DNA from: Cellvibrio sp. UBA7671
GTDB lineage: Bacteria; Pseudomonadota; Gammaproteobacteria; Pseudomonadales; Cellvibrionaceae
Direction: 5' to 3'
Assembly (NCBI GenBank): GCA_002483145.1
Contig: DLHJ01000012.1
Location: 261,463 to 325,462, forward strand
DNA: 64,000 nt
Position 1 is the first letter of the stretch; every line of letters begins with the position of its first letter. The position numbers were made by a program, and so were the translations under genes. The notes below the pieces were generated by a model. It ran no database searches. It was not told the origin of the DNA and was given only the letters and a program-made list of their open reading frames with translations. Of the stretch, positions 3,190-19,646 are shown in pieces.

Positions 3190-3219
3190 TTGACATTAAT
3201 TATATTGTGCTGATATATT
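3190..3219 (+). promoter_or_regulatory. Sigma-70 promoter of the RiPP operon
   Basis: A perfect -35 TTGACA (3190-3195) is followed after 18 bp by TATATT (3214-3219), with a TG extended -10 element directly before it. It lies 40 bp before the first gene of the plus-strand operon and is the best promoter in the region. Confidence 0.65.
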
Positions 3220-3258: not shown

Positions 3259-3606
3259 ATGAAGTATTTCCCGTCACGTTTCCTCTTTACCCTTTTTCTG
3301 TTTGCTATTTCGATTTGCAGTGCGAAAGCTGAAGAGCTAGCGTTCGTAACGTTCTTAAATGATGTAATAACTCCCATAGAAATTAAAAAAGATTTGACGC
3401 GCGATGAACTCGTAGAGTTAACGTTCACTACAGGTTATAAGGTCACGGTATATACTGAAATAAAGAATCAAGAACAAATCTACTATTTTAAATGCGAAGA
3501 TCAACCCCTCATGGAAGTCCGAAATGATGTTGGCCAGCCAGGCACATATATGTTTCGCGACTTGAAAGATAATGTCTATCAAATAAAAGCGAGCATTAAA
3601 CAATAA
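3259..3606 (+). CDS. Small secreted protein, first gene of the RiPP operon
   Basis: 115 residues with a clear Sec signal peptide (positively charged start, hydrophobic core to about residue 20, cleavage near SAKA-EE). The mature part, about 90 residues, is probably beta-rich, with one Cys. No family recognised. It is transcribed from the promoter at 3190 and ends only 11 bp before the radical SAM gene. Being periplasmic and leading the operon, it could be an immunity factor or a chaperone for the peptide product; this is inference from position. Confidence 0.75.
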   Translation: MKYFPSRFLFTLFLFAISICSAKAEELAFVTFLNDVITPIEIKKDLTRDELVELTFTTGYKVTVYTEIKNQEQIYYFKCEDQPLMEVRNDVGQPGTYMFRDLKDNVYQIKASIKQ

Positions 3607-3617
3607 GGATGTTTTAA

Positions 3618-4874
3618 ATGATTTCTACAAATGGAGTATTTGTACCGCTGCATGAAACCAGTCAACCTATAACGCGATTGTCAAAGATACAAATTGTTTT
3701 GAAGTTGATATCTACTTGCAATCTGCGTTGCACCTATTGCTATTGGTTCTTCAAAGGTGATGAGACATGGAAAAAGTCCAGCATTTCTCTAAAGTCTGGC
3801 ACTGTCGAACATCTAATAGAATTTCTAAGTGAAGCACAGGCCGAGCTAGGCGTGGGTGAAATCGATATCATTTATCATGGTGGTGAACCCATGATGATGA
3901 AAGTTTTAGAATTTGATGATGTTTGCAAAAAGCTTAAGAATGCTTTAGGTGGAATTTGCCGCTTGCATTTTAAGATGCAAACTAATGCAACTTTAATAGA
4001 TCAGCAGTGGATGGCTGTTCTTGAGGAGCATAAAGTCTTTATGGGCGTTAGTTTGGATGGCCCAAAAGAAATAAACGATATAGCTCGGGTCGATATCCGT
4101 GGGAATAGTTCGTACGACAATTCTATACGCGGAATTAAGATGCTTATGGACTCAGCGGATCAGGGAAGGCTTGCTAAGCCTGGGTTGATTGCAGTCCTAA
4201 ACCCGTCTCTCAACAATGCAGATATGTACAGGTTTTTTCTGGATCTAGGATTCCAGAGTATGAATTATCTGCTTCCCAATTATTCATATGATGATAAGCC
4301 TCAAGATCTTGATGTGGCATCAATCGGTAGTGCAATGATTGAGGTTTTTGATACATGGAGTTCGCTCGAAAGCCCGTTGTCATATTCCGTTGCCTTTATT
4401 GAGAATACCTTAAATTTCTTCCAGTATATAAATGCCAAAAACTTTAAGGCTCAAGAAAATATACGGTATAACGCAATTATTGCATGTACAACTGACGGAG
4501 ATATCTCAGTCGACGACAATTTGATGTGCACTGATTGGCGGCGCAATCTTATAGCTCCGAAGTTAGAAGAGACAACGGCCGGTGACTTCATAAATGGTGA
4601 AATATATTCAGTAATAGATCGTGCCTCTCAACAGCTCCCCACGGCGTGCGAGCGTTGTAAATATAGAAACCTTTGCCGTGGTGGTGAGCTTCCTCACAGA
4701 TATTCTAATAAAAATGGTTTCGATAATCCCTCAATTTACTGTGACGGTTTAATCATGTTTTTCGAGCACGTGATTAATTACTTGCTCAATAACGGATATC
4801 CTGTCAGTGAGATTAATCGGAGGCTGGCGCCAGGTTATTCAATGATTCTGCAGGTTCAAGAGCGGGTTTTCTAA
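3618..4874 (+). CDS. Radical SAM/SPASM peptide maturase, cyclophane-forming type
   Basis: 418 residues. The radical SAM cluster motif C34-x3-C38-x2-C41 is followed by HGGEP (about residues 88-92), typical of SPASM-type peptide maturases. The C-terminal third has two groups of Cys, including CERCKYRNLCRGG, then a conserved HRYS-x3-NGFDNPS-x-YC stretch. From memory, that end is characteristic of the FxsB/GrrM/XyeB/YhhB group, which crosslinks an aromatic side chain to the beta carbon of the residue two positions on (three-residue cyclophanes). Its likely substrate is the 52-residue peptide encoded at 6799. The gene is second in the operon. Enzyme class is secure; the exact crosslink is inferred. 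Confidence 0.88.
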   Translation: MISTNGVFVPLHETSQPITRLSKIQIVLKLISTCNLRCTYCYWFFKGDETWKKSSISLKSGTVEHLIEFLSEAQAELGVGEIDIIYHGGEPMMMKVLEFDDVCKKLKNALGGICRLHFKMQTNATLIDQQWMAVLEEHKVFMGVSLDGPKEINDIARVDIRGNSSYDNSIRGIKMLMDSADQGRLAKPGLIAVLNPSLNNADMYRFFLDLGFQSMNYLLPNYSYDDKPQDLDVASIGSAMIEVFDTWSSLESPLSYSVAFIENTLNFFQYINAKNFKAQENIRYNAIIACTTDGDISVDDNLMCTDWRRNLIAPKLEETTAGDFINGEIYSVIDRASQQLPTACERCKYRNLCRGGELPHRYSNKNGFDNPSIYCDGLIMFFEHVINYLLNNGYPVSEINRRLAPGYSMILQVQERVF

Positions 4875-4902
4875 GATCGCCGGGAATATTCAAATAAAAT
4901 TT

Positions 4903-5706
4903 ATGCGAAAAATAAAATTCTTCGATTTCACAGAGCAGCGTGCGCAAAACCGGGTTTCATTTTATCAAAGCGTTAGACTAGCGAGCGAGGAAAAGTTCAC
5001 TGAGTATTTTCAAGATGCGCACATACCTGCTGGAAGTATTTCCACGTGTGATTACGAAAGTGAATTTAACACTGGAGGTCTTTGGCGGCAAGGAAGTTCG
5101 GTAGCTGTGGTATCAGTCAACAGAGCTCTTTGTAGTGAAGCTCTTTGCGCACTTACGAGAATTCGGGCTCACAAAAGCTATCGCACTGAATTAGAGATGG
5201 TAACGAACGAACTGGTATCAAATATTTTTCAGAGCAATATTTTCAGTGGTGATGTACATGCCATCGGCTATGTGTCGACTAATGACTCCCTTCCTACTTT
5301 GACTAAAAACTTTGGTTCATCGGAGCGCGTAGGATTGCATGTCGATGATTGGACATCCGAGCCCATAATGCATCGGGGTGATTCACCCAATAGATTGGTT
5401 ATAAATTTGGGTCCCGACGAACGCTTCTTTCTCTTTGTAGGTGTTTCCATCGTTTACATTGCGAAAATATATAAGAGGATATATTCCACTTCATGTGAAA
5501 ACTCGTCGGATCTTTGTAATTGGTATTTAAGAAATAAAAAAAACATTAAGGTGTATGCGGTAAAAATTCTTCCAGGGGAAGCATATATAGCTCCGACAGA
5601 GAATTGCATTCATGATGCATTTACCCCAAATGGGTTAGCCAATACTACTTTTATGCTTCGATCTAATATATCACCCAAGTTGTTTGATAATGCAAAAGCC
5701 GGGTAA
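4903..5706 (+). CDS. 2OG-Fe(II) oxygenase-like RiPP tailoring protein
   Basis: 267 residues. I see a possible iron triad H146-x-D148 (in LHVDDW) and H237 (in CIHDAF), with Arg253 suitably placed to hold 2-oxoglutarate, giving the HxD...H...R order of the 2OG dioxygenase fold. The spacing is longer than usual, so a domain insertion is likely. It follows the radical SAM gene by 28 bp and overlaps the next gene. Oxygenases of this kind accompany cyclophane RiPP maturases in other clusters (the YhhC-type genes, from memory). Hydroxylation of the precursor is the likely role. A family assignment by profile was not possible. Confidence 0.6.
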   Translation: MRKIKFFDFTEQRAQNRVSFYQSVRLASEEKFTEYFQDAHIPAGSISTCDYESEFNTGGLWRQGSSVAVVSVNRALCSEALCALTRIRAHKSYRTELEMVTNELVSNIFQSNIFSGDVHAIGYVSTNDSLPTLTKNFGSSERVGLHVDDWTSEPIMHRGDSPNRLVINLGPDERFFLFVGVSIVYIAKIYKRIYSTSCENSSDLCNWYLRNKKNIKVYAVKILPGEAYIAPTENCIHDAFTPNGLANTTFMLRSNISPKLFDNAKAG

Positions 5707-6652
5707 AAACATACTTGTTATCGCCGAGAATGCGATAGGTGATTGTATTATGATGTTGCCAGCGTTGAGGGCGCTAAGTCGGAATTCTACGGAGGGATTT
5801 AGACTTTTGGTAAGTCCGAATAAAAGAGAATCCGTTTTCTTCGAATTTGAAAAACAAATTGAATTATGGACGGATTATACATCTGAAGGTGATTACATTT
5901 TTCCGTCAGATGAAAATATCCGTAGGGCAAGTGGAGGTTGCGATAGTTTAGTGAACTTGTGTACTTGGTGGAATGATTTTGATTCTTTTATGATTGATGG
6001 CATTACAGCGTATTCTGTTGCTGAAACAAAATTCGAATCTTATCCATCATCCTTGCGCACTCACGATCTCTTACATGCTTTTGAGAATTATTTTAAAGTT
6101 GTTAACCAAATATTTGAAACTGAATCAATCGAAAATTATGTTGCACCAGTTATGCTTCCTTCTGAAGCTATCGGCTTTGCAAAAAGCATAAAGGAAAGAC
6201 TAGGAACCAAAATTAAATTACTAGGAATTCATAGTTATTCTCGACCTGACAAGACAATGACGTCATGTGCATTTCCAACGGAGATAAATAAATTCCTTGT
6301 AAAAAACCCTGATTGGGTAATCGTGAATTTAGACCCAATCAAAGGAACCATCTTGGACGCAGTGTCGAGGGAAAAGGTGTTAAGGCTTTATGGGCGGCCG
6401 CTTTCATATTATTTAGCCATGGTAAACGTGTGCGATGCTTTTATTGGTGTTGATTCCTGTTTTCTACATGCGGCTGATCTTGCTCGAATTCCAAGTGTGG
6501 GCCTTTTTTCACCCACATCACCCAAAATCTGGGGTCTGAAATTTTCTAAAGGCTTAAACCTTTGCGCCGATAGTATGAGTCTGTTTGAAGGTGCGGACAT
6601 TAATCTTGCGCTGGGGTCATTGATGCATGAAGTGAATGCGCAGTATTGTTAA
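5690..6652 (+). CDS. Glycosyltransferase family 9 (heptosyltransferase-like)
   Basis: About 320 residues from the ATG at 5690; a TTG two codons earlier is possible. The N-terminus (NILVIAENAIGD) and the C-terminal FIGVDSCFLHAADLARIPSV followed by FSPTSP match the two Rossmann halves of GT9 ADP-heptose:LPS heptosyltransferases, including the nucleotide-sugar binding GVDS-x3-HAA stretch. The start overlaps the end of the preceding oxygenase gene, so the two are translationally coupled. In this setting it may glycosylate the peptide product rather than LPS core; that is inference from position. Confidence 0.72.
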   Translation: MQKPGKNILVIAENAIGDCIMMLPALRALSRNSTEGFRLLVSPNKRESVFFEFEKQIELWTDYTSEGDYIFPSDENIRRASGGCDSLVNLCTWWNDFDSFMIDGITAYSVAETKFESYPSSLRTHDLLHAFENYFKVVNQIFETESIENYVAPVMLPSEAIGFAKSIKERLGTKIKLLGIHSYSRPDKTMTSCAFPTEINKFLVKNPDWVIVNLDPIKGTILDAVSREKVLRLYGRPLSYYLAMVNVCDAFIGVDSCFLHAADLARIPSVGLFSPTSPKIWGLKFSKGLNLCADSMSLFEGADINLALGSLMHEVNAQYC

Positions 6653-6798
6653 TCTTGAAAATTAAATGTTGCGTATTCATTTTGAAGGAATTTATTAACT
6701 GCCTTAAACCTATATCTAGTTTATGGTTTTTAATAAATGTCGACCTCCCTAGAGTTGGGCGCGGTGTCTAACTGGGAGTTAATTGTAAGGAGAATGTT

Positions 6799-6957
6799 AT
6801 GAAAGAGATTAACAAAGACGATTCACTTACATCTGAAGTTACTTCGGATGTTGTTGGTAGATTATTGCAAGAAATGGAGCTGGATGCTGTACAAGGCGCC
6901 GGTTGCTCATTTTTGCAAGGTCGTGGGTTTAGTAACACCGCTTCCAGTCACTGCTAA
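6799..6957 (+). CDS. RiPP precursor peptide, 52 residues
   Basis: Short reading frame with a strong ribosome site TAAGGAG six bases before the ATG. The N-terminal part is acidic and leader-like and ends in EMELDAVQGA, which fits the ELxxVxG(G/A) recognition site of C39 peptidases. Cleavage after GA would release an 18-residue core, GCSFLQGRGFSNTASSHC. The core has Cys at both ends, two Phe, and FSN, which fits the aromatic-x-polar motif crosslinked by cyclophane-forming radical SAM enzymes. The Ser-rich tail could be a glycosylation or acylation site. A terminator-like hairpin follows 9 bases after the stop. Precursor identity rests on size, leader and neighbours. Confidence 0.8.
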   Translation: MKEINKDDSLTSEVTSDVVGRLLQEMELDAVQGAGCSFLQGRGFSNTASSHC

Positions 6958-6966
6958 GTAAAAGAG

Positions 6967-6997
6967 CCCTCTCTTGCTAAAGTGAGGGAGGGTTTTT
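6967..6997 (+). terminator. Terminator/attenuator after the precursor gene, overlapping the next ribosome site
   Basis: A 9-bp stem (6967-6975 with 6984-6992, two G-U pairs) is followed directly by five T. It would make the precursor transcript the most abundant, with partial readthrough into the exporter genes. The 3' arm contains GGAGG (6987-6991), placed 8 bases before the ATG at 7000, so the same hairpin also hides that ribosome site. Confidence 0.65.
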
Positions 6998-6999
6998 AT

Positions 7000-7146
7000 A
7001 TGAAAACTACACTATTTCGTGAGACCGCCCTCAAGAAATATTCCAATAAAAATATTGGAAAGATATTTCCGTTTTCACCCAATAGAGACATCCGATTTTC
7101 GGTGGCTTTGGTTATCATTTCAATAATAGTAATCATGGCATTGTAG
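7000..7146 (+). CDS. 48-residue membrane peptide resembling the N-terminus of an HlyD-type adaptor
   Basis: Too short for most gene finders. It reads from an ATG with GGAGG upstream to a TAG 22 bp before the exporter gene. The first part (LFRETALKKYSNKNIGKIF) resembles the start of HlyD/CvaA-type membrane fusion proteins, which begin with LFR-x-EAL and a short linker before the transmembrane anchor. A single hydrophobic segment (about residues 33-48) follows, and the frame stops exactly where the periplasmic part would begin. It is either a truncated HlyD gene or a free-standing anchor. A full adaptor is encoded at 13726. Confidence 0.55.
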   Translation: MKTTLFRETALKKYSNKNIGKIFPFSPNRDIRFSVALVIISIIVIMAL

Positions 7147-7168
7147 AATACTTTATCGTGCGAATAAT

Positions 7169-9205
7169 ATGATTTTTCAATCTGAAACTTCGGAGTGCGG
7201 TATTGCCTGCACCGCTATGATCTTGAAGCATTTCGGACATGACTGTTCGATTGAATCGTTAAGAGCTAAAGTGAAAGATAGGACGTTTGGCATTAGCTTA
7301 CGCGAAATGGTAGAAATTCTTTCTTCTTATAACGTACAAAGCCGACCCATCAGAATCGAAGTTGAAGATCTCACAAAGATTACGTTGCCATCCATTTTAC
7401 ATTGGAATATGAACCACTATGTTGTGGTTGATAAAGTCAACCGTAACGGCATTAGAATTAAAGACCCGTCACACGGTGTTAGGTGGGTTGGTTTGAAGGA
7501 ACTAGATGGCTCATTTACAGGAGTGTGTCTGGAGCCTTCTTTTGATGATGCACTAAAAATTCCAGCACAAAATGGAAAGAGTAAAAATGATTTTTTTGTT
7601 CTCCTTGAGAGTTTGAGGAAAAGCTACTTTACCATATTTGTTGTCATAATTTTATCTATACTAATTCAATTTCTAACAACAAAACTTCCCGTCTATATTC
7701 AAAAATACATAGATGCCCATGATTCAATTGACTCACTGCCAAAAATTCTGCTGGCTTTACTCACCATTGGTTTCCTAATTAATTTATCCGAATTCATGAG
7801 AGCCAGACTCATAAATTATTTATCTGGAAAAATTCACATAAATATAATAACAGCGATAGTCGGTAAGTTGTTCAATCTTCCGGTGGAATATTTTAGAAAA
7901 CGTTCCGTAGGCTCTATGTTGTCCCGGATCGGGTCAATAAATGAAATTAGGCGCATATTAACGGACGATGTTATATCCATCTTCGTGGATTCTATATTCC
8001 TATTATTCGCTCTATACGCCACCTCGTTATACAGTCCAAAGTTAACACTAATACTTGTAGTGAGTATCGTTTTGATGGTTCTTCTGCAAATATACCATTT
8101 TCGTAATCTAGATTCCGCAGCAGCAGAAGAGGTTCAAGCTCTGTCGAACTGTGAGTCGAGTTTGATTGAGTCTATTCAATCGATAGAATCTCTGAAAAGT
8201 AGCGCATCTGATACGGTTAAATATACTCAGTGGAAAAATCATGTTTTTGAAGCAACCGGATCGGAAATAAAATTTCGTAATTTGAAGGCTCTCGTTGATT
8301 TACAACGAGGAATTATCGTTTCTGCAGAAATAGCGTTGTTAATTGTTGTATCAATCAGTCTTATGGGAAAAGGCGAAATCACTATTGGCATAGTGATGGC
8401 CTTTATAACTCTTAGAGTTATAGTGAGTTTAAGGGTCATAGGCCTGCTAAATAATATATCTAATATTCGACTTATTGGAATTCATCTTTCAAGGGTCAGA
8501 GATATTATGTATGAAGAGGAAGAGGTCTTCGGTGACCACAAGATAGAAAAGGGTAATATTGAGCTTGAAAATATTTATTTTGGCTATGGGAACAATACCA
8601 TTTTCAATGGTATGAGCCTAACAATTGAAAATGAATCCCATGTCGCTGTAATAGGGGGTTCAGGCTCAGGCAAGACCACATTTGTGAATTTGATTTGCGG
8701 ACTAGTCCAGCCCTCAGAAGGAAGTATAAAAATAGGCGGTATTCCCAATATCCATCTGGGCGCAAAATCATTGCGAAAAGAAATTGGTTTGGTGTTACAA
8801 GGCGATAAGTGCATTTTCGAGGGCACATTTATAGACAACATTACGATGTTTGAACCAAATCCAAATTTGGAGCATGTTAGGAATGTGATAAATATATGTC
8901 TACTTGATGATGTTGTATCAAAGCTTCCCAATGATATTCGCTCGATGATGCCAAACGGGAACATGTTATCCGGCGGACAAGTTCAAAGGATAATGATAGC
9001 TCGCGCTATCTACAGGGAGCCAAAGATACTAATAATGGATGAGGCTACAAATAATCTCGACGCTGAAACAGAAAAAAAATTACTCGAGAATATTAACAAA
9101 TTGAATTTTACAAAGATATCCATCACTCATAGAAACACGGTGCTATCACATGTGAATAGCACATATAAAATTGTTGACTTAAAAATGGAAAAAATCGATA
9201 CATAG
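7169..9205 (+). CDS. Peptidase-containing ABC exporter (C39 peptidase, membrane domain, ATPase)
   Basis: 678 residues, the usual length for bacteriocin exporters of this class. Residues 1-125 form the C39 peptidase: catalytic Cys10 in SETSECGIAC, His in NHYVVVD (about 88) and Asp in KDPSHG (about 103). A membrane domain with about six segments spans residues 150-440. The ATPase has Walker A GGSGSGKTT, signature LSGGQ, Walker B ILIMDEAT and an H-loop ITHR. It should cut the precursor after its GA site and export the core in one step. The N-terminus is somewhat short before the catalytic Cys and the ribosome site is weak, suggesting coupling to the upstream 48-codon gene. Confidence 0.9.
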   Translation: MIFQSETSECGIACTAMILKHFGHDCSIESLRAKVKDRTFGISLREMVEILSSYNVQSRPIRIEVEDLTKITLPSILHWNMNHYVVVDKVNRNGIRIKDPSHGVRWVGLKELDGSFTGVCLEPSFDDALKIPAQNGKSKNDFFVLLESLRKSYFTIFVVIILSILIQFLTTKLPVYIQKYIDAHDSIDSLPKILLALLTIGFLINLSEFMRARLINYLSGKIHINIITAIVGKLFNLPVEYFRKRSVGSMLSRIGSINEIRRILTDDVISIFVDSIFLLFALYATSLYSPKLTLILVVSIVLMVLLQIYHFRNLDSAAAEEVQALSNCESSLIESIQSIESLKSSASDTVKYTQWKNHVFEATGSEIKFRNLKALVDLQRGIIVSAEIALLIVVSISLMGKGEITIGIVMAFITLRVIVSLRVIGLLNNISNIRLIGIHLSRVRDIMYEEEEVFGDHKIEKGNIELENIYFGYGNNTIFNGMSLTIENESHVAVIGGSGSGKTTFVNLICGLVQPSEGSIKIGGIPNIHLGAKSLRKEIGLVLQGDKCIFEGTFIDNITMFEPNPNLEHVRNVINICLLDDVVSKLPNDIRSMMPNGNMLSGGQVQRIMIARAIYREPKILIMDEATNNLDAETEKKLLENINKLNFTKISITHRNTVLSHVNSTYKIVDLKMEKIDT

Positions 9206-9254
9206 ATCGATCAAGTCTGCAGTATTTTGAAAATTTGGTTTGTGTGGAGTTGCC

Positions 9255-10850
9255 ATGGAAAAACATAATTTAATCGAACTCAAAGATATAGATCGCTACA
9301 GAAACATGCTTGACGTAAAAGTATGGGGTAGCGAAGAAAATCATTTCAAATTAAGGCATGCTAAATCCGTCAAATGTGAGAGATATGGCGGATTTGGTAT
9401 CGGCCGACATGGCGGCGGGGCTCGATCCGTGATTCTCGATGACCTGCAAGTGAAAGGCAGCGGACTAACACCCCTGGCAGGCATTACAAAAAATCTGAAT
9501 TATGCTCATGGCACTTTAACGCTGAATGATGCAGTGTTGGAGGTGATCTATTCCGGTGTACTAGACAGATTGTTGCCTCACGGAGTTATTCCATGTAGAG
9601 CAATTTACTATACGGGAAAGGAAGGTTCGTTTGAATATGATTGGAGGGCCGGATTCCCATCAGCGAGTTTGGACGAATCAATAGTATTAAAAAAAACGCA
9701 TGGAGCGATATTAATCAGAGATAACTGTAATAGACCTGCACATTACATGAGGGCAGGAGAATTTGATCCGAAGGATATATATGCTGAATTTATTTCTGCT
9801 GATCTGATAAGAATAAGAAATATAATCAAAGACCTCGATGAGGATGGTGCAAAGAATTTTATTTCTACAATAGTTAATTTTCTTACCAAATGTGCAGATC
9901 AATTTTCGTTTTCATGGATAGCTGGTTTGATGCACGGGGGTATTTCGCCTTCCAATATTTCTGTAGAGGGGGCGTGGCTCGATCTTGCAACATCTACTTT
10001 TATTGATAGGGGAAAAGATTTTCTAATTGTAGAGTATGAGTTTAGTAACGAATACAAACGTGTAGAGTCAATTATTAAAGAATGGGTATATACGTTTTCA
10101 AAATATAGCGGAAAGGAGTTAGGTTCAAGGCCTCTAATAGAACTCTATAACACGAGTTTTAACGAAAAAAAGGCTTATCACTTCCCATACATTCTTGGTC
10201 TGGCTAGAAATAAGGAAACAATGGAAGTCATTCTCGCTAACTATTGCAGGTCGTTTACAGATATTTGTAAGTTAATTACCCCGTCAGGTCGGACATATGG
10301 TGTTCCGGAAATTGGTATGGCTAATGCATTTCACCCTAGTGACTATATCTGCGGTATGGCATTGACCCCCGATAGTGAAATTCAAAAATTATATCGAGAC
10401 ATTTACTCCCTCAATGATAGGCCACTTAGTTTTAATGCATTCTTAACACAAGCGTTGTTGAAATGTACGAAGCGGGATTACTTGGCTTCAAAATACTACA
10501 AAAATAATGTAGAAGAGAATTTGGAGCTCAAGCTTGAGTGTCATGCCCCCGAACTATTCATAGACTCTTTTATAGAGACTTACATAAGCGATTCAGAATG
10601 GATTTTTTCCGATGAATTCTATGTTAACGAGGTTGTTTATCGTGATTCAGTTATTGATATTTTTTACGACACTAGTTCCAATTCTTTTAAGAAAAGAAAT
10701 TCATCTGGAATCGTGAGTATAAATGTAGTGTCCGAGTTGGAAGCAGTAATAACCGGTAACAGAAATTCAGCTAATAGAATATATGTTAGCTATTTAAATA
10801 GAATAGAGTTTATCTACTCGGAACTAAGAAAATACATAGGGTCACACTAA
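9255..10850 (+). CDS. SelO-like (UPF0061-like) protein in the RiPP operon
   Basis: About 531 residues from the ATG at 9255, which has GGAG five bases upstream; an in-frame TTG at 9240 is less likely. Two stretches resemble the SelO pseudokinase-fold AMP transferases: QVKGSGLTP (residues 65-73, like the KGSGxTP nucleotide loop) and MHGGISPSNISVEGAWLDL (226-244, like HGVMNTDNMSILGxTIDYG), including the metal-binding Asn and Asp. The Asp before that Asn in SelO is Ser233 here. The next gene encodes a HlyC-like protein; in class IIb microcin clusters a large protein (MceJ/MchC) is paired with a HlyC-like one (MceI). Similarity was judged by eye. Confidence 0.55.
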   Translation: MEKHNLIELKDIDRYRNMLDVKVWGSEENHFKLRHAKSVKCERYGGFGIGRHGGGARSVILDDLQVKGSGLTPLAGITKNLNYAHGTLTLNDAVLEVIYSGVLDRLLPHGVIPCRAIYYTGKEGSFEYDWRAGFPSASLDESIVLKKTHGAILIRDNCNRPAHYMRAGEFDPKDIYAEFISADLIRIRNIIKDLDEDGAKNFISTIVNFLTKCADQFSFSWIAGLMHGGISPSNISVEGAWLDLATSTFIDRGKDFLIVEYEFSNEYKRVESIIKEWVYTFSKYSGKELGSRPLIELYNTSFNEKKAYHFPYILGLARNKETMEVILANYCRSFTDICKLITPSGRTYGVPEIGMANAFHPSDYICGMALTPDSEIQKLYRDIYSLNDRPLSFNAFLTQALLKCTKRDYLASKYYKNNVEENLELKLECHAPELFIDSFIETYISDSEWIFSDEFYVNEVVYRDSVIDIFYDTSSNSFKKRNSSGIVSINVVSELEAVITGNRNSANRIYVSYLNRIEFIYSELRKYIGSH

Positions 10851-11281
10851 TGGATGAGAAAAAGTATGCAATTTTAGGAGAAATCGTGACGATTCGAGCC
10901 ACGATCGGATTAGTGACAGATGCCGAAAAAATCCGAGTGCTTGTGAATTCTATAAATTATGATCATGTAGCTGTAATTAAGGACCAATTCGAGTCGCCAG
11001 CTGGATACATATCTTGGGCAAAAATTAATGAAGAGTCATTAAAGCGATTCGTTAATAACTCACTATACCCAGAATACTTCTATGAGTGGAATGAGGGGGA
11101 TATTGTTATGATCACGGATATTGCGGCAGTGCATAGATATAGGTTCCAAACTCTTTCCAAGCTAAAAGATTTGGTGCGCACCTTCAATTGTTACACTTAT
11201 AAAAAGGGAGATAGGGCCCCTCGCCTCAGAAATATCCGCGAAGAATACTGTGAAAATGAAATCTCAGGGAAACATTCCTAG
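10850..11281 (+). CDS. HlyC-like toxin-activating acyltransferase homologue
   Basis: 143 residues, near the usual size for RTX toxin lysine acyltransferases. The matching core is SPAGYISWAKINEESLKRF followed by EWNEGD and ITDIAAV, comparable with PVAYCSWANLS, DW-x2-GD and FIDWIAP of HlyC. The Asp of the catalytic pair is kept (in TDIAA), but I find no His where HlyC has its catalytic His (SPLH corresponds to about GLVT here). ATG overlaps the previous stop (TAATG), so it is coupled to the SelO-like gene. In microcin E492 the HlyC homologue MceI helps attach the siderophore to the peptide C-terminus; a similar non-classical role is possible. Confidence 0.65.
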   Translation: MDEKKYAILGEIVTIRATIGLVTDAEKIRVLVNSINYDHVAVIKDQFESPAGYISWAKINEESLKRFVNNSLYPEYFYEWNEGDIVMITDIAAVHRYRFQTLSKLKDLVRTFNCYTYKKGDRAPRLRNIREEYCENEISGKHS

Positions 11282-11331
11282 TCAGAATTTCACTGCAAAA
11301 AATGAAGCTTTTTGTGCGATGAGAATGGAAT

Positions 11332-13098
11332 ATGAATATTAGTATAAATAGTGATGAAGTATCTCATCAAGAATTCAAAGATGGAAATGAACGAGTCGAC
11401 TACCAATTAAGCTTAGGTAAAACAAACGGGATATGTTTTGCGGTTACTGTTTTTAATGAGACTCCAAATGAATTCGCACTCAGCCTTAGTGCTTTAGTTG
11501 ACAATATCGATAAGTTGGCGTCTGTCGGCTTAGACAATAGTTCGATGCGCTTCACCATAGTTGTTATTTGTGATGGTAAGGAGTTTATTCATCCGGGTAC
11601 GTTGGCATTATTTGCTAAGTTTGGATTTTTAATCGATGCAGATCAGGTAAGTGTTACCCGTTCGATCCTAAAAGAATTTTCTACTGATGTTATTAGAGGC
11701 ATTTTGGGTGAATCTCAACCAAGTTTAATCCCTAGTAATGGTTCCATCCTGAATCAGTGGTCTGCTGACAATTTTACCGATGCACAATGCCAGCCAGTTG
11801 AATTTCTACTCGTCGTCAAAGAAAAAAATTTGGGGAAACTTAATTCTCATTGGCATTTTTATAATGTTATCTGCGTTGCGTTGAAACCTGACTATTGCGT
11901 GCAGATTGATGTGGGAACAGTTCCTCGGATTGATGCTCTTTCGGTCGCGATAGGGGTTTTGCAGAATGATTTAAATTGTGCTGCAGTGTCACCTTTCATA
12001 ATGGCAAATTCAGGGATAGTTAGGTCAAAATTGCTTGAGCTATGGCAGCTTGGAGGTTTTGCGAAAGCTGGATATTTTGATTGGAAATTAGAGTCATTTT
12101 CCGGATACTTAAGTGTAATACCGGGTCAGTTTAGTGTAATTAGATGGTCTTCAATTTACTTTGACACCAATGGGGCTAATAACGGTAAGAGTCCTTTAGA
12201 TACATATTTTGAGGGTTTAAGAGTCTCCTCCCCCTTTGAATCTAATTTGTACCTTGCCGAGGATAGGGTTCTTTGCTCTGGCATTTTCCTTAAATCAAAT
12301 GAATCATGGAGGATTCGTTATGACAGCAAATGCGTCGCCATAACAGATACATGTAAATCATGGGAGGAACTATTTAGACAAAGACGCCGCTGGAATTTAG
12401 GGTTTTTAGCGGCGAGGTTAAATTTTCTAAGTCAATTATGGGACAGAATAAAAAGTAGAACCAATGGCGGTCGTATGAAAAATGACGTGGCTGTGTTTCT
12501 ATACCACTCAATACAATTTTTGTTGGACTGGTTGACCCCGTCATTCATCGTGTCCATATATATATTTATGCGCTATGTCAATATTGACCTTTTAGGTGAT
12601 TTTTACATACTGAAAATTGCATCTGAGTTGATCTTCGCAGGAATAGTTTTGACGACAATGGCGTGCTTTTTTTTATCATTGTCTTCGGGACTTTCGTATA
12701 AATATCTATCGTGTTTTAAAGCGTCAATTGCTCTACAGATAGCTTACATTGTTTTAAGTGGCGCACTAATTTCTGTTTATCTTGTTCCTAATTTTGTAAC
12801 TGCAGCCGTTGGGCTCGCTGTATTTTTTCTAATTTTTAAAATCGGTTTTAAACGGATTTTTGAGGCTAGTCTATATTTTTTGATAAGAGCACCTATCAGC
12901 TTGCATGTATGGATGTACGCGATCACAAACTGTCATGATTCCAGTTGGGGCACTAAAGGGTTGCACCAATCAGCGATATCTGGATCCTGCAACTCGAAGA
13001 AAGGCTTTTCAAAATATAGGAGAAATGTGTTGATGACGTGGCTCGCAACCAACATCCTCACTATTTTGGCCGCCGTGATCATGTTCCAAAATATATAA
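11332..13098 (+). CDS. Membrane glycosyltransferase family 2, chitin-synthase-like
   Basis: 588 residues. The N-terminal catalytic domain starts near residue 35 and shows the motifs of processive GT2 enzymes: QIDVGT, AEDRVLC and QRRRW (the QxxRW motif). The exact wording is closer to eukaryotic-type chitin synthases than to NodC or cellulose synthase. Four to six hydrophobic segments follow (about residues 390-520, plus one at the C-terminus), placing it in the inner membrane. It stands in the middle of the RiPP operon, 50 bp after the HlyC-like gene. It could add sugar to the peptide or build a short glycan; donor and acceptor are unknown. Confidence 0.75.
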   Translation: MNISINSDEVSHQEFKDGNERVDYQLSLGKTNGICFAVTVFNETPNEFALSLSALVDNIDKLASVGLDNSSMRFTIVVICDGKEFIHPGTLALFAKFGFLIDADQVSVTRSILKEFSTDVIRGILGESQPSLIPSNGSILNQWSADNFTDAQCQPVEFLLVVKEKNLGKLNSHWHFYNVICVALKPDYCVQIDVGTVPRIDALSVAIGVLQNDLNCAAVSPFIMANSGIVRSKLLELWQLGGFAKAGYFDWKLESFSGYLSVIPGQFSVIRWSSIYFDTNGANNGKSPLDTYFEGLRVSSPFESNLYLAEDRVLCSGIFLKSNESWRIRYDSKCVAITDTCKSWEELFRQRRRWNLGFLAARLNFLSQLWDRIKSRTNGGRMKNDVAVFLYHSIQFLLDWLTPSFIVSIYIFMRYVNIDLLGDFYILKIASELIFAGIVLTTMACFFLSLSSGLSYKYLSCFKASIALQIAYIVLSGALISVYLVPNFVTAAVGLAVFFLIFKIGFKRIFEASLYFLIRAPISLHVWMYAITNCHDSSWGTKGLHQSAISGSCNSKKGFSKYRRNVLMTWLATNILTILAAVIMFQNI

Positions 13099-13111
13099 GG
13101 ATAAAACGTTT

Positions 13112-13687
13112 ATGGAAGTTTTTAGTAACTATATACATATATCGCATAATCCAGAGATTGCATCCGCCCTCTATGATGAATGTAAGTCAATTCTCGACAG
13201 AGTTAACCTAGATGAAAAATATCTCTATGGTAAGACTTCATATTTCGATTCGGGTGCCAAGAGCATAATTGAAGACAGTCAGTTGCTTAGGGAATTTATA
13301 ATTAAAAATGTTGTGGAATACTGTCAAATTGTTGGTCTTGATATTGGGCAGTCAAAACCAAACATTACGGATTTTTGGATCTCCGACATGTATAAACACG
13401 GGCATCACGACTTTCACACCCATAATATGTCTCATATAAGTGGTACCTTTTACATCAGAGTTGAAGAAAATAGCTCGCCAATAGTTTTTTGGGGTAACGA
13501 TTTCGCAAGTGATCCGTGGTGGAATTTAAAAAAATCGTCCTTCAACCGATTCAATGCAGCATGTTGGAAGATCCCTGTAAAAGATGGGATGCTGCTGTTG
13601 TGGAAATCAAATATTATCCATAGTGTACCGCCAAACGAGTCTTGTAGCCGTCTCGCGGCGAGCTTTAATATTTTACTAGAATGCTAG
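13112..13687 (+). CDS. 2OG-Fe(II) oxygenase, prolyl-hydroxylase-like small family
   Basis: 191 residues. The pattern fits the small 2OG-FeII_Oxy_5-type family: HHDFHTHNMSHISGTFYI carries the first iron ligands, GMLLLWKSNIIHSVPPN the distal His, and SCSRLAASFNI the 2-oxoglutarate Arg. It lies 13 bp after the GT2 gene. It is unrelated in sequence to the oxygenase-like protein at 4903, so the cluster has two candidate hydroxylases. Its substrate is presumably the peptide; that is inferred from the operon. Confidence 0.75.
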   Translation: MEVFSNYIHISHNPEIASALYDECKSILDRVNLDEKYLYGKTSYFDSGAKSIIEDSQLLREFIIKNVVEYCQIVGLDIGQSKPNITDFWISDMYKHGHHDFHTHNMSHISGTFYIRVEENSSPIVFWGNDFASDPWWNLKKSSFNRFNAACWKIPVKDGMLLLWKSNIIHSVPPNESCSRLAASFNILLEC

Positions 13688-13725
13688 TCATTCATTTGCA
13701 ACTTTACTGACGCTGGGTATGTAAG

Positions 13726-14922
13726 ATGGACGAGATGATAGATCAGAGGCGAAATATTAAAAAGCCGTTAGTTATCATTGCTTTGATAGTGCTATTTTTA
13801 ATAGTTGTAGTTGTTTTTTTCAAAAATTTCAACAAGAGCGAATTTTATGAAATTCAAAGCGGAGTTATGGAGAAGTCAATTAGCGGCAACGGTATCTTAC
13901 GCCCGTTAAACCAACAAAAAATATATGCTCCCTTTGAGGCAACTGTAGTAAAAATCCATCGCAGAGAGGGTGAGGATGTTGATAGTGGCGATGTTATTAT
14001 TAGCTTAGCAAATGAAGATGTGACAGCTAAATTGCTGGAAGCAGAGCTCGTCGTTTCAAAGGAGCAATATAACTACGAAGAAAAGAAGGCGTTAGGGTCA
14101 CAGCGGATCATCGAACTCGAACTCCGAAAAATAAAAGTAGAAGCAGATCTTAAGCGGCAGTCTCTCGAGTTTGATGCTTTTTCACATCTTAAAGTGGCAG
14201 ATGTGATTTCAAAATTGGAGTACTCAAGAAAACATGCCGAAATTGAATCTTTACAGCTTGAGCTGCAGCAGTTAAAAATTTTGCTTAAAAAGGAAGAGGC
14301 ACAATCTGCTATTTTCAATGCCGCAGTTAAGTCATTGCTTGAGAAGCAAAAAGAAAATCTTGAGGCAATTAAAAGCGCAGCTCAATTGTTAGAAGTTCGA
14401 AGTAATTTACCGGGAAAAGTAGATTCGATTTTCGAAAACTTAGAAGTTGGATCCATCGTCAAAAAAGGCCAGGATCTTGTTATAGTTGCCGATTACCTAA
14501 AGTGGATCGTAGATCTTGATGTTCCCGCTGCAGGCGCAGAGCTTATTCGCCAAGGTGACAAAGTGAATGTAAATATTCAAGAAAAGTCATTTGAAGGAAG
14601 GGTTGACAGAATTTATCCGTCAGCCAAAAACCAGCTTGTCAAAATTTCCGTGAACGTAATTGGGTTGGATGAAAGCTTTCGTGTTGGACTCCGTGTATTT
14701 GGGAAGATAACAACCCAAAAGCCAGAAAAAATAATGTTTGTTGAGAATGCTCCGAGTTACTTAGTGGATGGGTATCAGGATGTTCTCATTTCCGACGAGC
14801 GTCAGAATGAAATTGTCATTAAAGCCAGAGTGCTTAAAATTGACGATAACAAAGTCATGTTGGACGGAAATTTTTCTTCATTTACAAAAATTCGATTTAT
14901 AAATCCATCGAGAACGCTATGA
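13726..14922 (+). CDS. Periplasmic adaptor (membrane fusion) protein, MacA/HlyD-like
   Basis: 398 residues. One N-terminal membrane anchor (about 17-35), then a lipoyl-like half (GNGILRPLN to EGEDVDSGDVI), a long coiled coil (about 100-220), the second lipoyl half (RSNLPGKVDSIF) and a beta-barrel region. It would link the inner-membrane ABC pump encoded next to an outer-membrane channel. No TolC-like gene lies in this window, so a chromosomal TolC is probably used. Its stop overlaps the ATPase gene start by 4 bp (ATGA). Confidence 0.85.
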   Translation: MDEMIDQRRNIKKPLVIIALIVLFLIVVVVFFKNFNKSEFYEIQSGVMEKSISGNGILRPLNQQKIYAPFEATVVKIHRREGEDVDSGDVIISLANEDVTAKLLEAELVVSKEQYNYEEKKALGSQRIIELELRKIKVEADLKRQSLEFDAFSHLKVADVISKLEYSRKHAEIESLQLELQQLKILLKKEEAQSAIFNAAVKSLLEKQKENLEAIKSAAQLLEVRSNLPGKVDSIFENLEVGSIVKKGQDLVIVADYLKWIVDLDVPAAGAELIRQGDKVNVNIQEKSFEGRVDRIYPSAKNQLVKISVNVIGLDESFRVGLRVFGKITTQKPEKIMFVENAPSYLVDGYQDVLISDERQNEIVIKARVLKIDDNKVMLDGNFSSFTKIRFINPSRTL

Positions 14923-15602
14923 GTTCAATTATTAAACTAACGGACGTGACTAGGACTTTCGAATTACATCATATGCGTACAAAAGCAGTAAGCGGGGTCA
15001 ATCTTGAGATTTCTTCAGGGGACTATTTGTCTATTGAGGGTGCTTCGGGGTCTGGAAAATCGACTTTGCTAAACATATTATCTCTTATCGATAAGCCTAC
15101 TGAAGGTACGGTTACATACTATGGTGAAAATGCGGCTCATTTATCATCACGTAATCTAGCAAAAATTCGGAATAAGAAAATTGGATTTGTTTTTCAGACA
15201 TTTAATTTGCTTGGCCATTTAACTGTCTACGACAATGTATATTTGCCAATTAAGTACTCAAGCGATCGAATCCCGGGCATTGAGCAAAGAATTGATGCTT
15301 TATTGGATGACCTTAAGCTAATCAATAGAAAGCAACATTACCCCCACCAGCTTTCTGGTGGACAACAACAACGGGTCGCTATTGCTCGTGCCGTGGTGAA
15401 TGATCCTGATATCGTATTCGCAGATGAGCCTACAGGGAATCTAGATGATAGTAGCGCCAGCGATGTTATAGGTATTCTTGAGTCTCTGCATAAGAGGGGG
15501 AAAACGCTTTGCATTGTTACGCATAATTCAGGTATAGCAATGCGAGCTCACCGAAGAATTCGTTTAGACGGCGGTAAGTTAACTGAATTTTTTGTCGAGT
15601 AA
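14919..15602 (+). CDS. ABC transporter ATPase, MacB/LolD type
   Basis: 227 residues with Walker [11 protein letters not shown]-loop FVFQTFNLL, signature LSGGQQQR and Walker [13 protein letters not shown], the pattern of the MacB/LolD/FtsE ATPases. It starts within the adaptor stop and ends 4 bp before the permease ATG. With the adaptor and permease it forms a MacAB-like pump in which ATPase and permease are separate chains. Likely roles are export of the mature product or self-protection. Confidence 0.9.
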
Positions 15603-15606
15603 CAGT

Positions 15607-17928
15607 ATGTATAAGCGTGCGGCCTTCTTAATTATAAGTATTGTAGTTATATCTACGTTCTTTCTATTCCTTCAAGTCGCGGTCTTCAAGACTCTTTCGG
15701 TTAAGAAAGTAGTGCCGGATGGCTTAAAGGATAACAGTTTCATCTCATTTTTTAGCGCAAAGCATGAAGACGTTAGGCGAATCGGTCATGAGGATACGTT
15801 GAAAATTAATGGGGTTATTGACAATGAAATTGCCACATTCTCGCTAGTTTCATCGAATTATAATGACAATACTATTCACTTGGGGCTTGTTTCCGCTAAT
15901 TTTTTTAATGTTTTAGATTTGGACGGCGTCAAATCACAAGTGCTTGACTCACCTCAGAAAATCATACTGAGCAAAGAGCATGGGCAGATCCTCGGTAGGA
16001 CATACCAAGTAAACGATGTCTTTTATTTAAATAGAGATACACCTTTGATTGTGACGGCGATAGCACCAGATGGTTTTAAGGGTATATCATCTGGCGGCGA
16101 GATTGGCTGGATTGCCCACAAGGGTAACGAGTTACTGTACTCCGGATACCCCACTGTAGATAAAGAAAGTCGTGCAGAATTATTTAGATTTGCACCAGAG
16201 CAATTGGCATTTGCACGTGTTGATGCGAGTTCTATTGACGCTGTTCGTAAAGCTTTGGAAAACGCCACACTTAGACCTGCCGAATATTTTCAAGCTACAG
16301 AATCTGTTGCTGTTAAATTTGGGCTGGAGGGATACATCATCTCCGCAAGGGAGGGAATGATCTATGAATGGGCCCAGTATCAGCAAGAAAGGCGTAAGGC
16401 ATTTATTTTTATCGTTGCAAGTACTTTAATTTCAATCTTCGTGGTTTTCGGTCAGATTCTAAGTCAGCTTGCCAGCACACTTAAGTTGGTAGATGTATTG
16501 AAGTTGGAGGAAATTTTAGGAGCTGCACCTTTCGCAATATTTAGGCGATTAATGTTTTTTGCCTTAATTCCCGTTTTGCCCGCATTCGGTGTGTCAGTTG
16601 TTTCGGGTCTAGTCCTGTATTTTCTTCCTACAGGACAGCTTGTATTTGGCCCATCCCATTCAAATTATCTATTTATTTCTATCTTGGTAGCTTTTGTAAT
16701 TGCTTTGCTAATTATTGTTCTCTCAACGTCGTTGAGCCTATTAGTCTATAACAACAAAAAAACCATGAGCTTGTCTCAAAGAGCAAGTATATCTCTTGGC
16801 GAATTATGGATGATTAGATCGTCGGTGCTTATACAAGTTGTAATTTTTTTTATCGTTGTATGTGCCATTATTCTAGGTATTAGAGAATCTAAAACGTTTT
16901 TTAAGCAGGCCCTGGGGTTTGAGAAATCTGATCTAATCTATTTATCTTTACGTGAAGTATCACAAGTACAAAATGGTGTATTTAATCATATTCAAAGCGC
17001 ATTAATGAACGAGCCCAACTTCAAAAATGTGAAAATCGCATCGTTAGTTGGTGCCCCTGGGTTTGGGAAAGCTTGGTCTGGTCAAGCAAGCATCAATCAG
17101 AAATCTGCAGTAAGTGCTAACATGCTTTTTATATCAAGAAGCTTCCTTGATGTTGTTGGTTCCTCTTTAGTTTCGGGGGATGCAATCGACGATAGCGGTG
17201 CTCCTGGAGTTTTGGTTAATTATGCATTAGCTAAAACATTCTACACGGAAGATGCTGATGAATTAGTTGGGAGGGAAATAAATATTAATGTTATGGGAGT
17301 CGATATAGTTAAACCAATAATAGGCGTGGTGTCTGATTCATATGTCTCCGTACCCACTGTATATTTTAATGGTGCGGACAAACAGGGGATTGTTGTTGAG
17401 GGTGATCAATTTTTAATCGATTTCGATGGGGATGTAAATGAGCTTAGAGATTTCTTGGATCGTACATTAAGTCCCATTGGTTGGGGAGTAGGATCTCTAA
17501 TTCCTCTAGAGCAGATGGTTCAAGAGATGCGTCCGAATTTAAGAAACATGAATCTAATTGTGGCTCTAACGAGTGCTGCGCTAACTTTACTAATTGTGTA
17601 CACAATGGTTGTTGGAATTTTTCATGAAATTACCGCGAGGTGGGCAGAGTTTAAACTAAAGTATTATTTGGGCGCAGATTTAAGAAGCCTAATTATAGAA
17701 CTCTCTCGATCCAGTGGTAAGTTAATACTATTGGGTGTGAGTATTGGTTTAGTTTTTATATTTTTTATCCGCGGATTTTTACAGGGTGCTTACCCTGCAG
17801 TTGCATTTTCTGAATTCGTTGTCGTTGCGATATTTGCTGCACTGACGGTCATAGTCGCGTTGTTTCTGGTTATATTGGCTCTTGGTTTTTTTGGTTTGAA
17901 TCGATTGGCTAATCCTAGCTTGAGCTAA
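15607..17928 (+). CDS. FtsX-family ABC permease with two FtsX-like modules
   Basis: About 773 residues from the ATG at 15607, 4 bp after the ATPase stop. A signal-anchor segment at the N-terminus is followed by a periplasmic domain, three membrane segments near residues 265-380, a fifth near 400-420, a second periplasmic domain, and three segments near the C-terminus. This eight-segment layout is that of tandem FtsX permeases rather than four-segment MacB. It is the last gene of the operon. Mechanotransmission across the periplasm through the adaptor is the known mode for this class. Confidence 0.85.
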   Translation: MYKRAAFLIISIVVISTFFLFLQVAVFKTLSVKKVVPDGLKDNSFISFFSAKHEDVRRIGHEDTLKINGVIDNEIATFSLVSSNYNDNTIHLGLVSANFFNVLDLDGVKSQVLDSPQKIILSKEHGQILGRTYQVNDVFYLNRDTPLIVTAIAPDGFKGISSGGEIGWIAHKGNELLYSGYPTVDKESRAELFRFAPEQLAFARVDASSIDAVRKALENATLRPAEYFQATESVAVKFGLEGYIISAREGMIYEWAQYQQERRKAFIFIVASTLISIFVVFGQILSQLASTLKLVDVLKLEEILGAAPFAIFRRLMFFALIPVLPAFGVSVVSGLVLYFLPTGQLVFGPSHSNYLFISILVAFVIALLIIVLSTSLSLLVYNNKKTMSLSQRASISLGELWMIRSSVLIQVVIFFIVVCAIILGIRESKTFFKQALGFEKSDLIYLSLREVSQVQNGVFNHIQSALMNEPNFKNVKIASLVGAPGFGKAWSGQASINQKSAVSANMLFISRSFLDVVGSSLVSGDAIDDSGAPGVLVNYALAKTFYTEDADELVGREININVMGVDIVKPIIGVVSDSYVSVPTVYFNGADKQGIVVEGDQFLIDFDGDVNELRDFLDRTLSPIGWGVGSLIPLEQMVQEMRPNLRNMNLIVALTSAALTLLIVYTMVVGIFHEITARWAEFKLKYYLGADLRSLIIELSRSSGKLILLGVSIGLVFIFFIRGFLQGAYPAVAFSEFVVVAIFAALTVIVALFLVILALGFFGLNRLANPSLS

Positions 17929-18743: not shown

Positions 18744-19646
18744 ATGAAAGTAACAAAAGCTCTTACTCTTTCGTTGGGCGAACTTAATATGCCCGTAATA
18801 ACCGAATATCAGGTGGGCCTAGCTCTTCATAAAATCTATCGTCAAAAAGAATACAAGGGTGAGCCTGTAGCTCTACAAAAGGATGCAGCGGAGCGTAGGG
18901 ATTTTAATAAGTATCTTTTGAATTTGATTGAAGACGGTGTTCTCAACACGCAATCTGATTTGCCCCCAAAGGTGTTTGCTTTCGTGGGTCATCTCCGGTG
19001 GACCCCAGAAGAAGTTGTATGTGCTGCGGACCCTTTCTCTTACATTTCTCATCTAAGTGCAATGGCTTATCATGGATTGACGGATAGGATTCCAGTGAAG
19101 CTTTATGTTTCATCTCCTGGCCCAACCGAATGGAAAAAATTTGCCCAAGAGCGAATGGAAAAAGATTTAGGTGCGAATTTAGATGAGTACACAAATAACG
19201 GACTCCCCCTGCTAACTCGATCCAACTTTGTAAAGATTGGAAAAACTGAAATTCATTCATTTAAATCCAAGCATCTTGGCGCTTATAAAAATGCGCATGA
19301 AAGAGTAATCAGGGTTTCTACAATAGGCCGTACATTTTTGGATATGCTGAGAAGCCCGGAGTTGTGTGGCGGAATCAATCATGTCCTTGAGGTTTATGAT
19401 GAATATGCCGGGAAGTATTTACGATTAATAACCGATGAAATAAATACTCATGGTGCTCCCATCGATAAGGTGAGAGCTGGCTATATTATTAGCGAAAGAT
19501 TAAATATTAAAAATGATGTCGTAGAGCGCTGGAGTGAATATGCACAGCGAGGAGGCTCAAGAAAACTTGACGCTGCTGGTGAATATGTCCCTACGTGGTC
19601 TGACAGATGGTGCCTTTCTATAAATATATTTGAGAAGGCAAAATGA
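18744..19646 (+). CDS. abiEi: AbiEi-type antitoxin and autorepressor of a type IV toxin-antitoxin system
   Basis: 300 residues. The N-terminal 90 residues look like a winged-helix DNA-binding domain. The middle has DPFSYISHLSAMAYHGLTDR, which is typical of AbiEi antitoxins (Y-x2-HLSA-x2-YHGL), and STIGRTFLDMLRSPELCGG closes the antitoxin domain. Known of the family: it neutralises AbiEii without binding it stably and represses the operon by binding inverted repeats. Two such palindromes lie directly upstream. It overlaps abiEii by 4 bp (ATGA). Confidence 0.85.
   Translation: MKVTKALTLSLGELNMPVITEYQVGLALHKIYRQKEYKGEPVALQKDAAERRDFNKYLLNLIEDGVLNTQSDLPPKVFAFVGHLRWTPEEVVCAADPFSYISHLSAMAYHGLTDRIPVKLYVSSPGPTEWKKFAQERMEKDLGANLDEYTNNGLPLLTRSNFVKIGKTEIHSFKSKHLGAYKNAHERVIRVSTIGRTFLDMLRSPELCGGINHVLEVYDEYAGKYLRLITDEINTHGAPIDKVRAGYIISERLNIKNDVVERWSEYAQRGGSRKLDAAGEYVPTWSDRWCLSINIFEKAK

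Follow-up and report, generated by a model that had tools for sequence, protein, structure and literature searches.

The 64,000-nucleotide window analysed here, from Cellvibrio sp. UBA7671 (contig DLHJ01000012.1; G000:C1:261463-325462 in the notation used below, within a genome of 5.04 Mb), carries at 3259-17928 a real hybrid biosynthetic cluster, in which a cyclophane-type radical S-adenosylmethionine (SAM) enzyme and a peptide-conjugating pair of the microcin MceJ/MceI type lie in one tightly packed run of 14 plus-strand genes with intergenic gaps of −23 to +146 bp. The run begins with a 115-residue protein, the radical SAM enzyme, a MicC-like oxygenase, a GT9-type glycosyltransferase, the precursor peptide, a 48-residue micro-gene and a C39 exporter, and continues with a MceJ-like protein, a HlyC-like protein, a GT2 glycosyltransferase, a second oxygenase of the 2-oxoglutarate (2OG) type, a MacA-like adaptor, a MacB-like ATPase and a MacB-like permease (Table 1), and all the parts named in the initial annotation are present. 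It is probable that the cluster makes a ribosomally synthesised and post-translationally modified peptide (RiPP) that carries two rings, is likely oxidised and is conjugated to a glycosyl-type partner, and that the C39 transporter and the MacAB-like pump export it. Observed are the gene content, the clade of the radical SAM enzyme, the family of the ligase pair and the fact that one relative has kept both peptide and architecture, the family assignments being made by Pfam and NCBIfam scans with curated cut-offs.

The radical SAM enzyme scores best with XyeB (262 bits), YhhB (247) and FxsB (197), all models of cyclophane-forming enzymes and all matched below their cut-offs, and less well with the anaerobic sulfatase maturase (163) and the dynobactin and darobactin models DynA (130) and DarE (72). 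In a tree of 24 proteins (25 rows were intended, L092 giving no usable open reading frame, ORF) it groups with its counterpart in G014, a genome of the same genus, then with the enzyme of Pseudoalteromonas NC201, the nearest relative beyond the genus, and then falls inside a ten-row clade that includes the annotated XyeB of Xenorhabdus bovienii (support 100/99), with YhhB, FxsB and the sulfatase enzyme placed outside. This fully supported placement marks the enzyme, as judged from sequence, as being of the three-residue-cyclophane ("triceptide") type, and its scores below the cut-offs show that it is not the XyeB equivalog itself. The initial annotation had made its case depend on membership of the cyclophane-forming families, and inside the clade with XyeB is where the enzyme falls. 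Four clade relatives that were scanned found XyeB (three) or YhhB (one) as their best model, again all below cut-off, and the CxxxCxxC motif and four later Cys residues of the SPASM type are invariant in five aligned enzymes.

The substrate would be the 52-residue peptide encoded at 6799-6957, the sole ORF with a double-glycine-type leader outside other genes among 32 small plus-strand ORFs between 3000 and 18744. Its leader ends in a form cleaved by C39 peptidases, and the 18-residue core holds two Cys residues and a Ser/Thr-rich tail, ending in NTASSHC and so on Cys. The G014 counterpart, GCSFLQGRGFSNTASTFC, is nearly identical to the window peptide, and over the 20 codons from the residues GAG to the last Cys (GAGCSF...C) 13 differ silently, two change the residue and five are identical, a pattern that points to a core kept by selection. 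Just 3' of the precursor lies a stable hairpin that G014 has in the corresponding position (−21.9 kcal/mol, z −4.58) and that may act as a partial terminator or attenuator, a placement that would be usual where precursor is needed in excess.

Within the core, FLQ and FSN match the aromatic-x-x pattern of triceptides, and the two aromatic-x-Gln/Asn motifs compare with 0.3 in shuffles (P 0.016-0.018, becoming 0.051 if Arg/Lys are counted too). A first test summed four cores, with five other clade relatives left out; over all nine cores of the radical SAM clade there are 14 such motifs against 5.2 in shuffles (P 0.0001), an excess that comes mainly from the window peptide and NC201 (L036), each of whose five Tyr residues is followed by x-Gln, these two being the cores significant singly. 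Arg/Lys replaces Gln/Asn wholly or partly in the Paracoccus, Rhizobacter, Pandoraea and Xenorhabdus cores, and a wider x-Gln/Asn/Arg/Lys set, chosen after the cores were seen and with no instance in Nitrospirillum, gives 23 against 7.0. Links from Phe C4 to Asn C-beta formed by XncB and OscB are described in a review (PMC11002830; the published sources cited here are each drawn on in part).

The MceJ-like protein aligns with annotated plasmid MchC proteins at 26.0-29.5% identity (tblastn) and with a Pantoea MchC at 29% over 271 aligned positions (BLASTP). Its relation to the kinase-like SelO family is remote, with 18.4 bits to the Pfam SelO model (cut-off 22.8), a model matched at E<=0.001 by four of 27 MceJ homologues, while hhalign against the SelO of the same genome gives a probability of 79 and, in a search of the PDB, the 27-homologue profile has SelO structures as its top matches (E 0.0012). 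Across these homologues E101, H232, N239 and D248 never vary, K72 is at least 90% conserved, and together, by analogy with SelO, they would form the ATP site. A 2012 paper describes mchC as a distant SELO subfamily and counts five mchC genes in Cellvibrio japonicus Ueda107 (PMC3281104), and a review has MceIJ/MchCD joining C-glycosylated enterobactin to the C-terminal region of the peptide while calling its precise function unknown (PMC7472721). Of 24 loci, 21 have a HlyC-like gene near the MceJ homologue; 19 of these genes were identified by BLAST (counting L048, where the two lie about 3 kb apart) and two by position. What the initial annotation had described as a SelO-like plus HlyC-like pair is present, and can be sharpened to the MchC/MchD, that is MceJ/MceI, type on account of the plasmid MchC identity, the PF02794 match and the shared residues.

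The same PF02794 match, which exceeds its cut-off, and the Pfam naming of SelO proteins as protein adenylyltransferases could also be taken to mean that the HlyC-like protein puts a fatty acyl group on the peptide, with the SelO-like protein regulating by AMPylation only. HlyC acylates Lys, however, and the core has none, whilst the resemblance of the pair to MchC/MchD and its joint occurrence across MceJ loci also speak against lipidation, which seems very unlikely.

The relatives suggest that the pair and the radical SAM enzyme belong together. In G014, 12 of the 14 cluster genes recur within a 32-kb stretch, peptide and hairpin in the same place, with the MceJ/HlyC pair 3' of the MacAB trio and followed by a GH13 enzyme where the window has the GT2. 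Matches to the radical SAM enzyme occur at E<=0.001 in 12 of 144 family genomes and at E<=1e-20 in three, namely G000 (the window genome), G014 and G029, and in all three the MceJ/HlyC pair is in the same cluster as the radical SAM gene and a GT2 or GH13 gene comes after the pair. The G029 cluster encodes, besides MceJ, HlyC and GT2, a secreted hydrolase, a precursor rich in F-x-Q, a radical SAM enzyme of XyeB type, a HlyD-like adaptor and a C39 exporter, and its peptide differs from that of the window. MceJ homologues are present in 15 of the 144 genomes, G014 having five and the window genome one, inside the cluster; in all there are 25 MceJ matches, 24 outside the window genome, of which 23 were examined as loci, a second match in G039 being left out. 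The recurrence of the pair in related clusters, on which the initial annotation had staked its reading, is thus found with nearly the same peptide (G014) and with a different one (G029).

The position of the G014 pair, 3' of the MacAB trio, means that it moves as a block, and together with the GT2 and the second oxygenase not being found in that stretch this would suit two adjacent clusters in the window, a triceptide unit (3259-9205) and, beside it, a microcin-like unit (9240-17928) that is unrelated and has lost its own precursor. Yet in G014 the pair is still in a run with nearly the same peptide, in G029 it shares a cluster with another precursor and radical SAM enzyme, a second free-standing double-glycine precursor was not found among the 32 small plus-strand ORFs, and the gaps between genes are short. 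A pair of neighbouring clusters is therefore judged quite improbable, and the single hybrid cluster is preferred.

As to the partner of the peptide, a GT1, GT2, GT4 or GH13 gene (BLAST, either strand) is found in 15 of 25 MceJ loci and in 0 of 57 radical SAM control loci, an enrichment that is suggestive only, because the queries were drawn from the same MceJ loci; the two locus sets also differ in taxa, 23 of 80 radical SAM loci were dropped as under 15 kb, GT9 was no query, so that the Luteibacter locus L061 is uncounted, and two annotated glycosyltransferases in L169 were missed by the queries. An enterobactin-type pathway was not found in the genome by two marker searches, the best EntA-type score being 148.6 (TIGR04316, cut-off 300) and the one condensation-domain match being at threshold (30.8 vs 30.6). 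Neither an IroB-type GT1 nor an IroD-type siderophore esterase is among the scanned cluster proteins, to which the search for them was confined and where GT9 and GT2 are the only glycosyltransferases. With no enterobactin-type pathway found by these markers, and glycosyltransferases at MceJ loci, a sugar-bearing partner that the cluster's own glycosyltransferases would make is favoured over enterobactin, and the earlier claim of a sugar or acyl group is restated as a sugar-bearing partner possibly joined to the peptide.

The homology of the pair to siderophore-microcin ligases does allow a siderophore to be attached instead, for example one of the non-ribosomal-peptide-synthetase-independent (NIS, IucA/IucC) type made elsewhere, giving a Trojan horse like the class IIb microcins, and the genome holds one NIS synthetase (256 bits, 618-residue frame). 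That gene lies on a separate contig, however, and the EntA-type and condensation-domain scores, the cluster proteins scanned for IroB-type GT1 and siderophore esterase, and a plus-strand promoter region without a Fur-box signal all argue against a siderophore-conjugated triceptide, which is regarded as unlikely. Doubtful to a like degree is the bolder proposal that the pair ligates peptides to sugars in general. On that view the product would be a Trojan horse of the carbohydrate kind, in which a cyclophane peptide is linked by an ester bond to an oligosaccharide that would come from the chitin-synthase-type GT2 or, in G014, via the GH13 enzyme. Were that so, it would enter polysaccharide-degrading competitors by sugar transporters and not by siderophore receptors. 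Given that the pair occurs alongside various glycosyltransferases, and in a genome where enterobactin markers were not found, it may be asked whether the ligase family joins peptides to sugars generally, with siderophores as one case.

In the preferred reading of a glycosyl-joined triceptide, the chemistry, the sequence of its steps, the identity of the partner and the activity of the product are all inferred. The XyeB-type enzyme would cross-link the 6799-6957 peptide, most likely forming two three-residue cyclophanes at FLQ and FSN, and one or both of the 2OG enzymes probably oxidise it. The cluster glycosyltransferases would prepare a glycosyl-bearing partner to which the ATP-using MceJ/MceI-type pair joins the C-terminus or a side chain of the peptide. 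The C39 transporter, aided by the 48-residue HlyD-like micro-protein, would cleave off the leader just behind QGA and send the peptide to the periplasm, and the MacAB-like trio may then carry it out of the cell, the product probably being antibacterial.

Several points weigh against this reading. The radical SAM enzyme scores under the curated cut-offs of TIGR04496 (262 vs 450) and NF041707 (247 vs 445), and the HlyC-type catalytic His is not conserved in an alignment of 21 HlyC-like proteins. The precursor matches no family model and the peptide is short and Cys-terminated, unlike class IIb microcins. Taken singly, the Luteibacter, G029, Paracoccus, Pandoraea, Rhizobacter, Nitrospirillum and Xenorhabdus cores show no significant aromatic-x-Gln/Asn signal, and several clade precursors bear aromatic-x-Arg/Lys or FDL repeats instead. 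Neither FLQ nor a Phe-to-Gln link is among those quoted in the part of the review drawn on (PMC11002830). The GT2 and the second oxygenase were not found in G014, where the search for them covered the 32-kb stretch, and the MicC-like gene there is interrupted by an insert, so the GT2, MicC-like and second-oxygenase steps may be optional. In the neighbourhood comparison that the initial annotation had proposed, the pair shares a cluster with the radical SAM gene in G014 and G029 but is near it in 0 of 80 named radical SAM relatives (the best 80 of 175, many of them distant and none from the window's own genus), and it is also not found near that gene in NC201.

Each element of the cluster is known already by itself, namely triceptide clusters, 2OG enzymes beside cyclophane radical SAM enzymes, MceIJ pairs and MacAB-type export, and it is the combination and not the parts that is novel; a cyclophane radical SAM enzyme together with a MceIJ-type pair was not found described in the literature searched, which lacks most subscription journals, including the original triceptide and MceIJ papers. 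With triceptide systems of the XYE/YhhB type (XncB, XyeB, YhhB) the window shares the XyeB clade, a double-glycine-type leader and aromatic-x-x motifs, with the Xenorhabdus xye cluster also a C39 exporter, and with yhhABC a 2OG oxygenase after the radical SAM enzyme. It differs from them in its MceJ/MceI-type pair, GT9, chitin-synthase-type GT2 and MacAB-like pump, in the two Cys residues and Ser/Thr-rich tail of its peptide, and in oxygenases dissimilar to YhhC. Darobactin and dynobactin clusters, whose radical SAM enzymes act on a short core, are weakly like it in the MacAB-like export trio, for which DarD is the top ATPase model though nearly tied with LolD, and the window is unlike them in having a C39 peptidase exporter, a XyeB-type enzyme and the ligase pair. 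The class IIb microcins E492, H47 and M share with the window the MceJ/MchC plus MceI/MchD pair, a cluster glycosyltransferase and an ATP-binding cassette (ABC) exporter; the window in contrast has a cross-linking radical SAM enzyme, an 18-residue core in place of a 5-10 kDa peptide, no IroB-type glycosyltransferase or siderophore esterase among the scanned cluster proteins, and a genome in which enterobactin markers were not found. The definition of the class asks for a peptide of 5-10 kDa that carries a Ser-rich motif at its C-terminus (PMC11634061), and the window core lies outside that definition.

Two further loci are alike in part. Luteibacter anthropi L061 has a XyeB-type radical SAM enzyme, C39 and GT9, but the ligase pair was not found there. 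In a Vibrio alginolyticus plasmid (L038, 8800-17500) HlyC-like, SelO-like, GT2, Gly-rich small precursor, radical SAM, HlyD and C39 genes lie in one run, but the radical SAM protein is small and unrelated, with viperin and STM4011 models below cut-off. The cluster links two antibiotic-making kits that have been treated as separate. One is that of the cyclophane peptides, some of which act on BamA, the xenorceptides among them (PMC12971899); the other is that of the MceIJ enzymes, whose conjugating role is little understood. An 18-residue substrate with a fixed core could ease assay of the ligase chemistry.

Table 1. Features of the cluster and its flanking signals (window positions).
Feature	Position	Strand	Evidence
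Promoter-like site, TTGACA-18-TATATT, extended	3190..3219	+	best scan site, 11/12 matches, ~40 bp 5' of first gene
115-residue protein, first gene, signal peptide apparent by eye	3259..3606	+	36% over 74 residues to same-place G014 gene
Radical SAM/SPASM enzyme, predicted cyclophane-forming, XyeB type	3618..4874	+	TIGR04496 262 bits, cut-off 450
MicC-like Fe(II)/alpha-ketoglutarate oxygenase	4903..5706	+	PDB 9vkm (MicC) E 7.4e-10, residues 139-244
GT9-type glycosyltransferase	5684..6652	+	PF01075 21.9, cut-off 22, borderline
Precursor, 52 residues, leader end ELDAVQGA, core GCSFLQGRGFSNTASSHC	6799..6957	+	77% identity over 39 residues in G014
Hairpin just 3' of precursor	6962..6997	+	−22.1 kcal/mol, z −5.33
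48-residue micro-gene like N-terminal membrane segment of HlyD adaptors	7000..7146	+	39% over 44 residues to same-place G014 ORF, E 2e-6
C39 peptidase-containing ABC exporter	7169..9205	+	PF03412, PF00664, PF00005; TIGR03796 best, 391 bits, cut-off 853
MchC/MceJ homologue, remote SelO (kinase-like) family	9240..10850	+	start may be ATG at 9255
HlyC-like partner, MceI/MchD type	10850..11281	+	PF02794 26.1, above cut-off 25
Membrane GT2, chitin-synthase type	11332..13098	+	PF01644 E 2.6e-19; solved chitin synthases E 1.4e-29
Second 2OG-Fe(II) oxygenase (2OG5)	13112..13687	+	PF13759 (2OG-FeII_Oxy_5) E 4e-14; TIGR02466 59.3, cut-off 62.5
MacA/HlyD-like periplasmic adaptor	13726..14922	+	PF13437, TIGR01730
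MacB/LolD/DarD-like ATPase	14919..15602	+	NF038007 DarD 212.5 bits (cut-off 375); LolD 211.7 (also below cut-off), FtsE 209.8
MacB/DarB-like permease	15592..17928	+	TIGR03434 59.4, NF038008 DarB 22.4 bits, both below cut-off

The two unrelated 2OG-oxygenase-like proteins that had been claimed are borne out by the PDB and PF13759 matches of Table 1, and neither is similar to YhhC. The MicC-like protein has no match in the Pfam and NCBIfam scans, and an HxD and a later H are visible in its sequence. Homologues of it adjoin a Bacteroidota radical SAM enzyme in Mucilaginibacter (L064, 11397-14001), where two MicC-like oxygenase genes lie by a cyclophane-type radical SAM gene and what by eye is a LanB-like ORF. 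A GT9 homologue is present in G014, and that of Luteibacter L061, beside its XyeB-type enzyme, passes the PF01075 cut-off (26.3); the AlphaFold model of the window GT9 is unusable (pLDDT 40). A glycocin with an S-linked GT2 was considered and set aside, the GT2 being of the membrane chitin-synthase type. Searched by tblastn against plasmids neither GT9 nor GT2 found a match, and protein P0005, searched against 299 genomes from the phylum, matched only itself.

Of the export genes, the permease has no match in the Pfam scan and is 25% identical to the G014 permease. No separate full-length HlyD is encoded next to the C39 exporter, which the MacA-like adaptor, with its HlyD-family domains, may serve; the likeness of the micro-gene to HlyD N-termini is weak, at best E 0.007 for the G014 copy and 0.05 for the window copy. 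The 115-residue first-gene product gave no usable family match in the Pfam and NCBIfam scans and a weak, all-beta AlphaFold model (pLDDT 59), and an immunity or periplasmic helper role for it is possible. Although a promoter-like site precedes this gene, such sites overall were not in excess over shuffles (34 vs 48.5). An iron-regulated promoter was set aside, since upstream of the first gene no Fur-box match exceeds 12/19, a level reached at 67 window positions on the plus strand, the one strand scanned.

Among other MceJ loci, G014 has, next to the orthologous cluster, a second one of microcin-like make-up (L041, G014:C1:344001-358000), with HlyD, C39, a double-glycine precursor, a rhomboid-like protein (by eye), a GT1 (EryCIII-like model), MceJ and HlyC. 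In L047 (G132:C1:3690000-3709900) three poly-Ser-tailed, aromatic-repeat precursors occur with MceJ, HlyC, C39, a tryptophan halogenase and GT2, GT1 and GT4 genes, and in L049 (G010:C61, 4330-16564) the MceJ/HlyC pair is beside a 2572-residue ORF that by eye resembles a non-ribosomal peptide synthetase and a chitin-synthase-type GT2. Two tandem MceJ homologues are seen in L051 (G006, 8212-14713) with one HlyC-like gene, a 178-residue ORF with a HlyD-like start and a C39 exporter. In the window itself, a 102-residue ORF just 5' of the cluster (2516-2824), its end Cys/Ser/Gly-rich by eye, is a candidate gene only, and directly 3' of the cluster (18744-24951) lies a defence island with an AbiEi/AbiEii pair followed by Gabija GajA/GajB.

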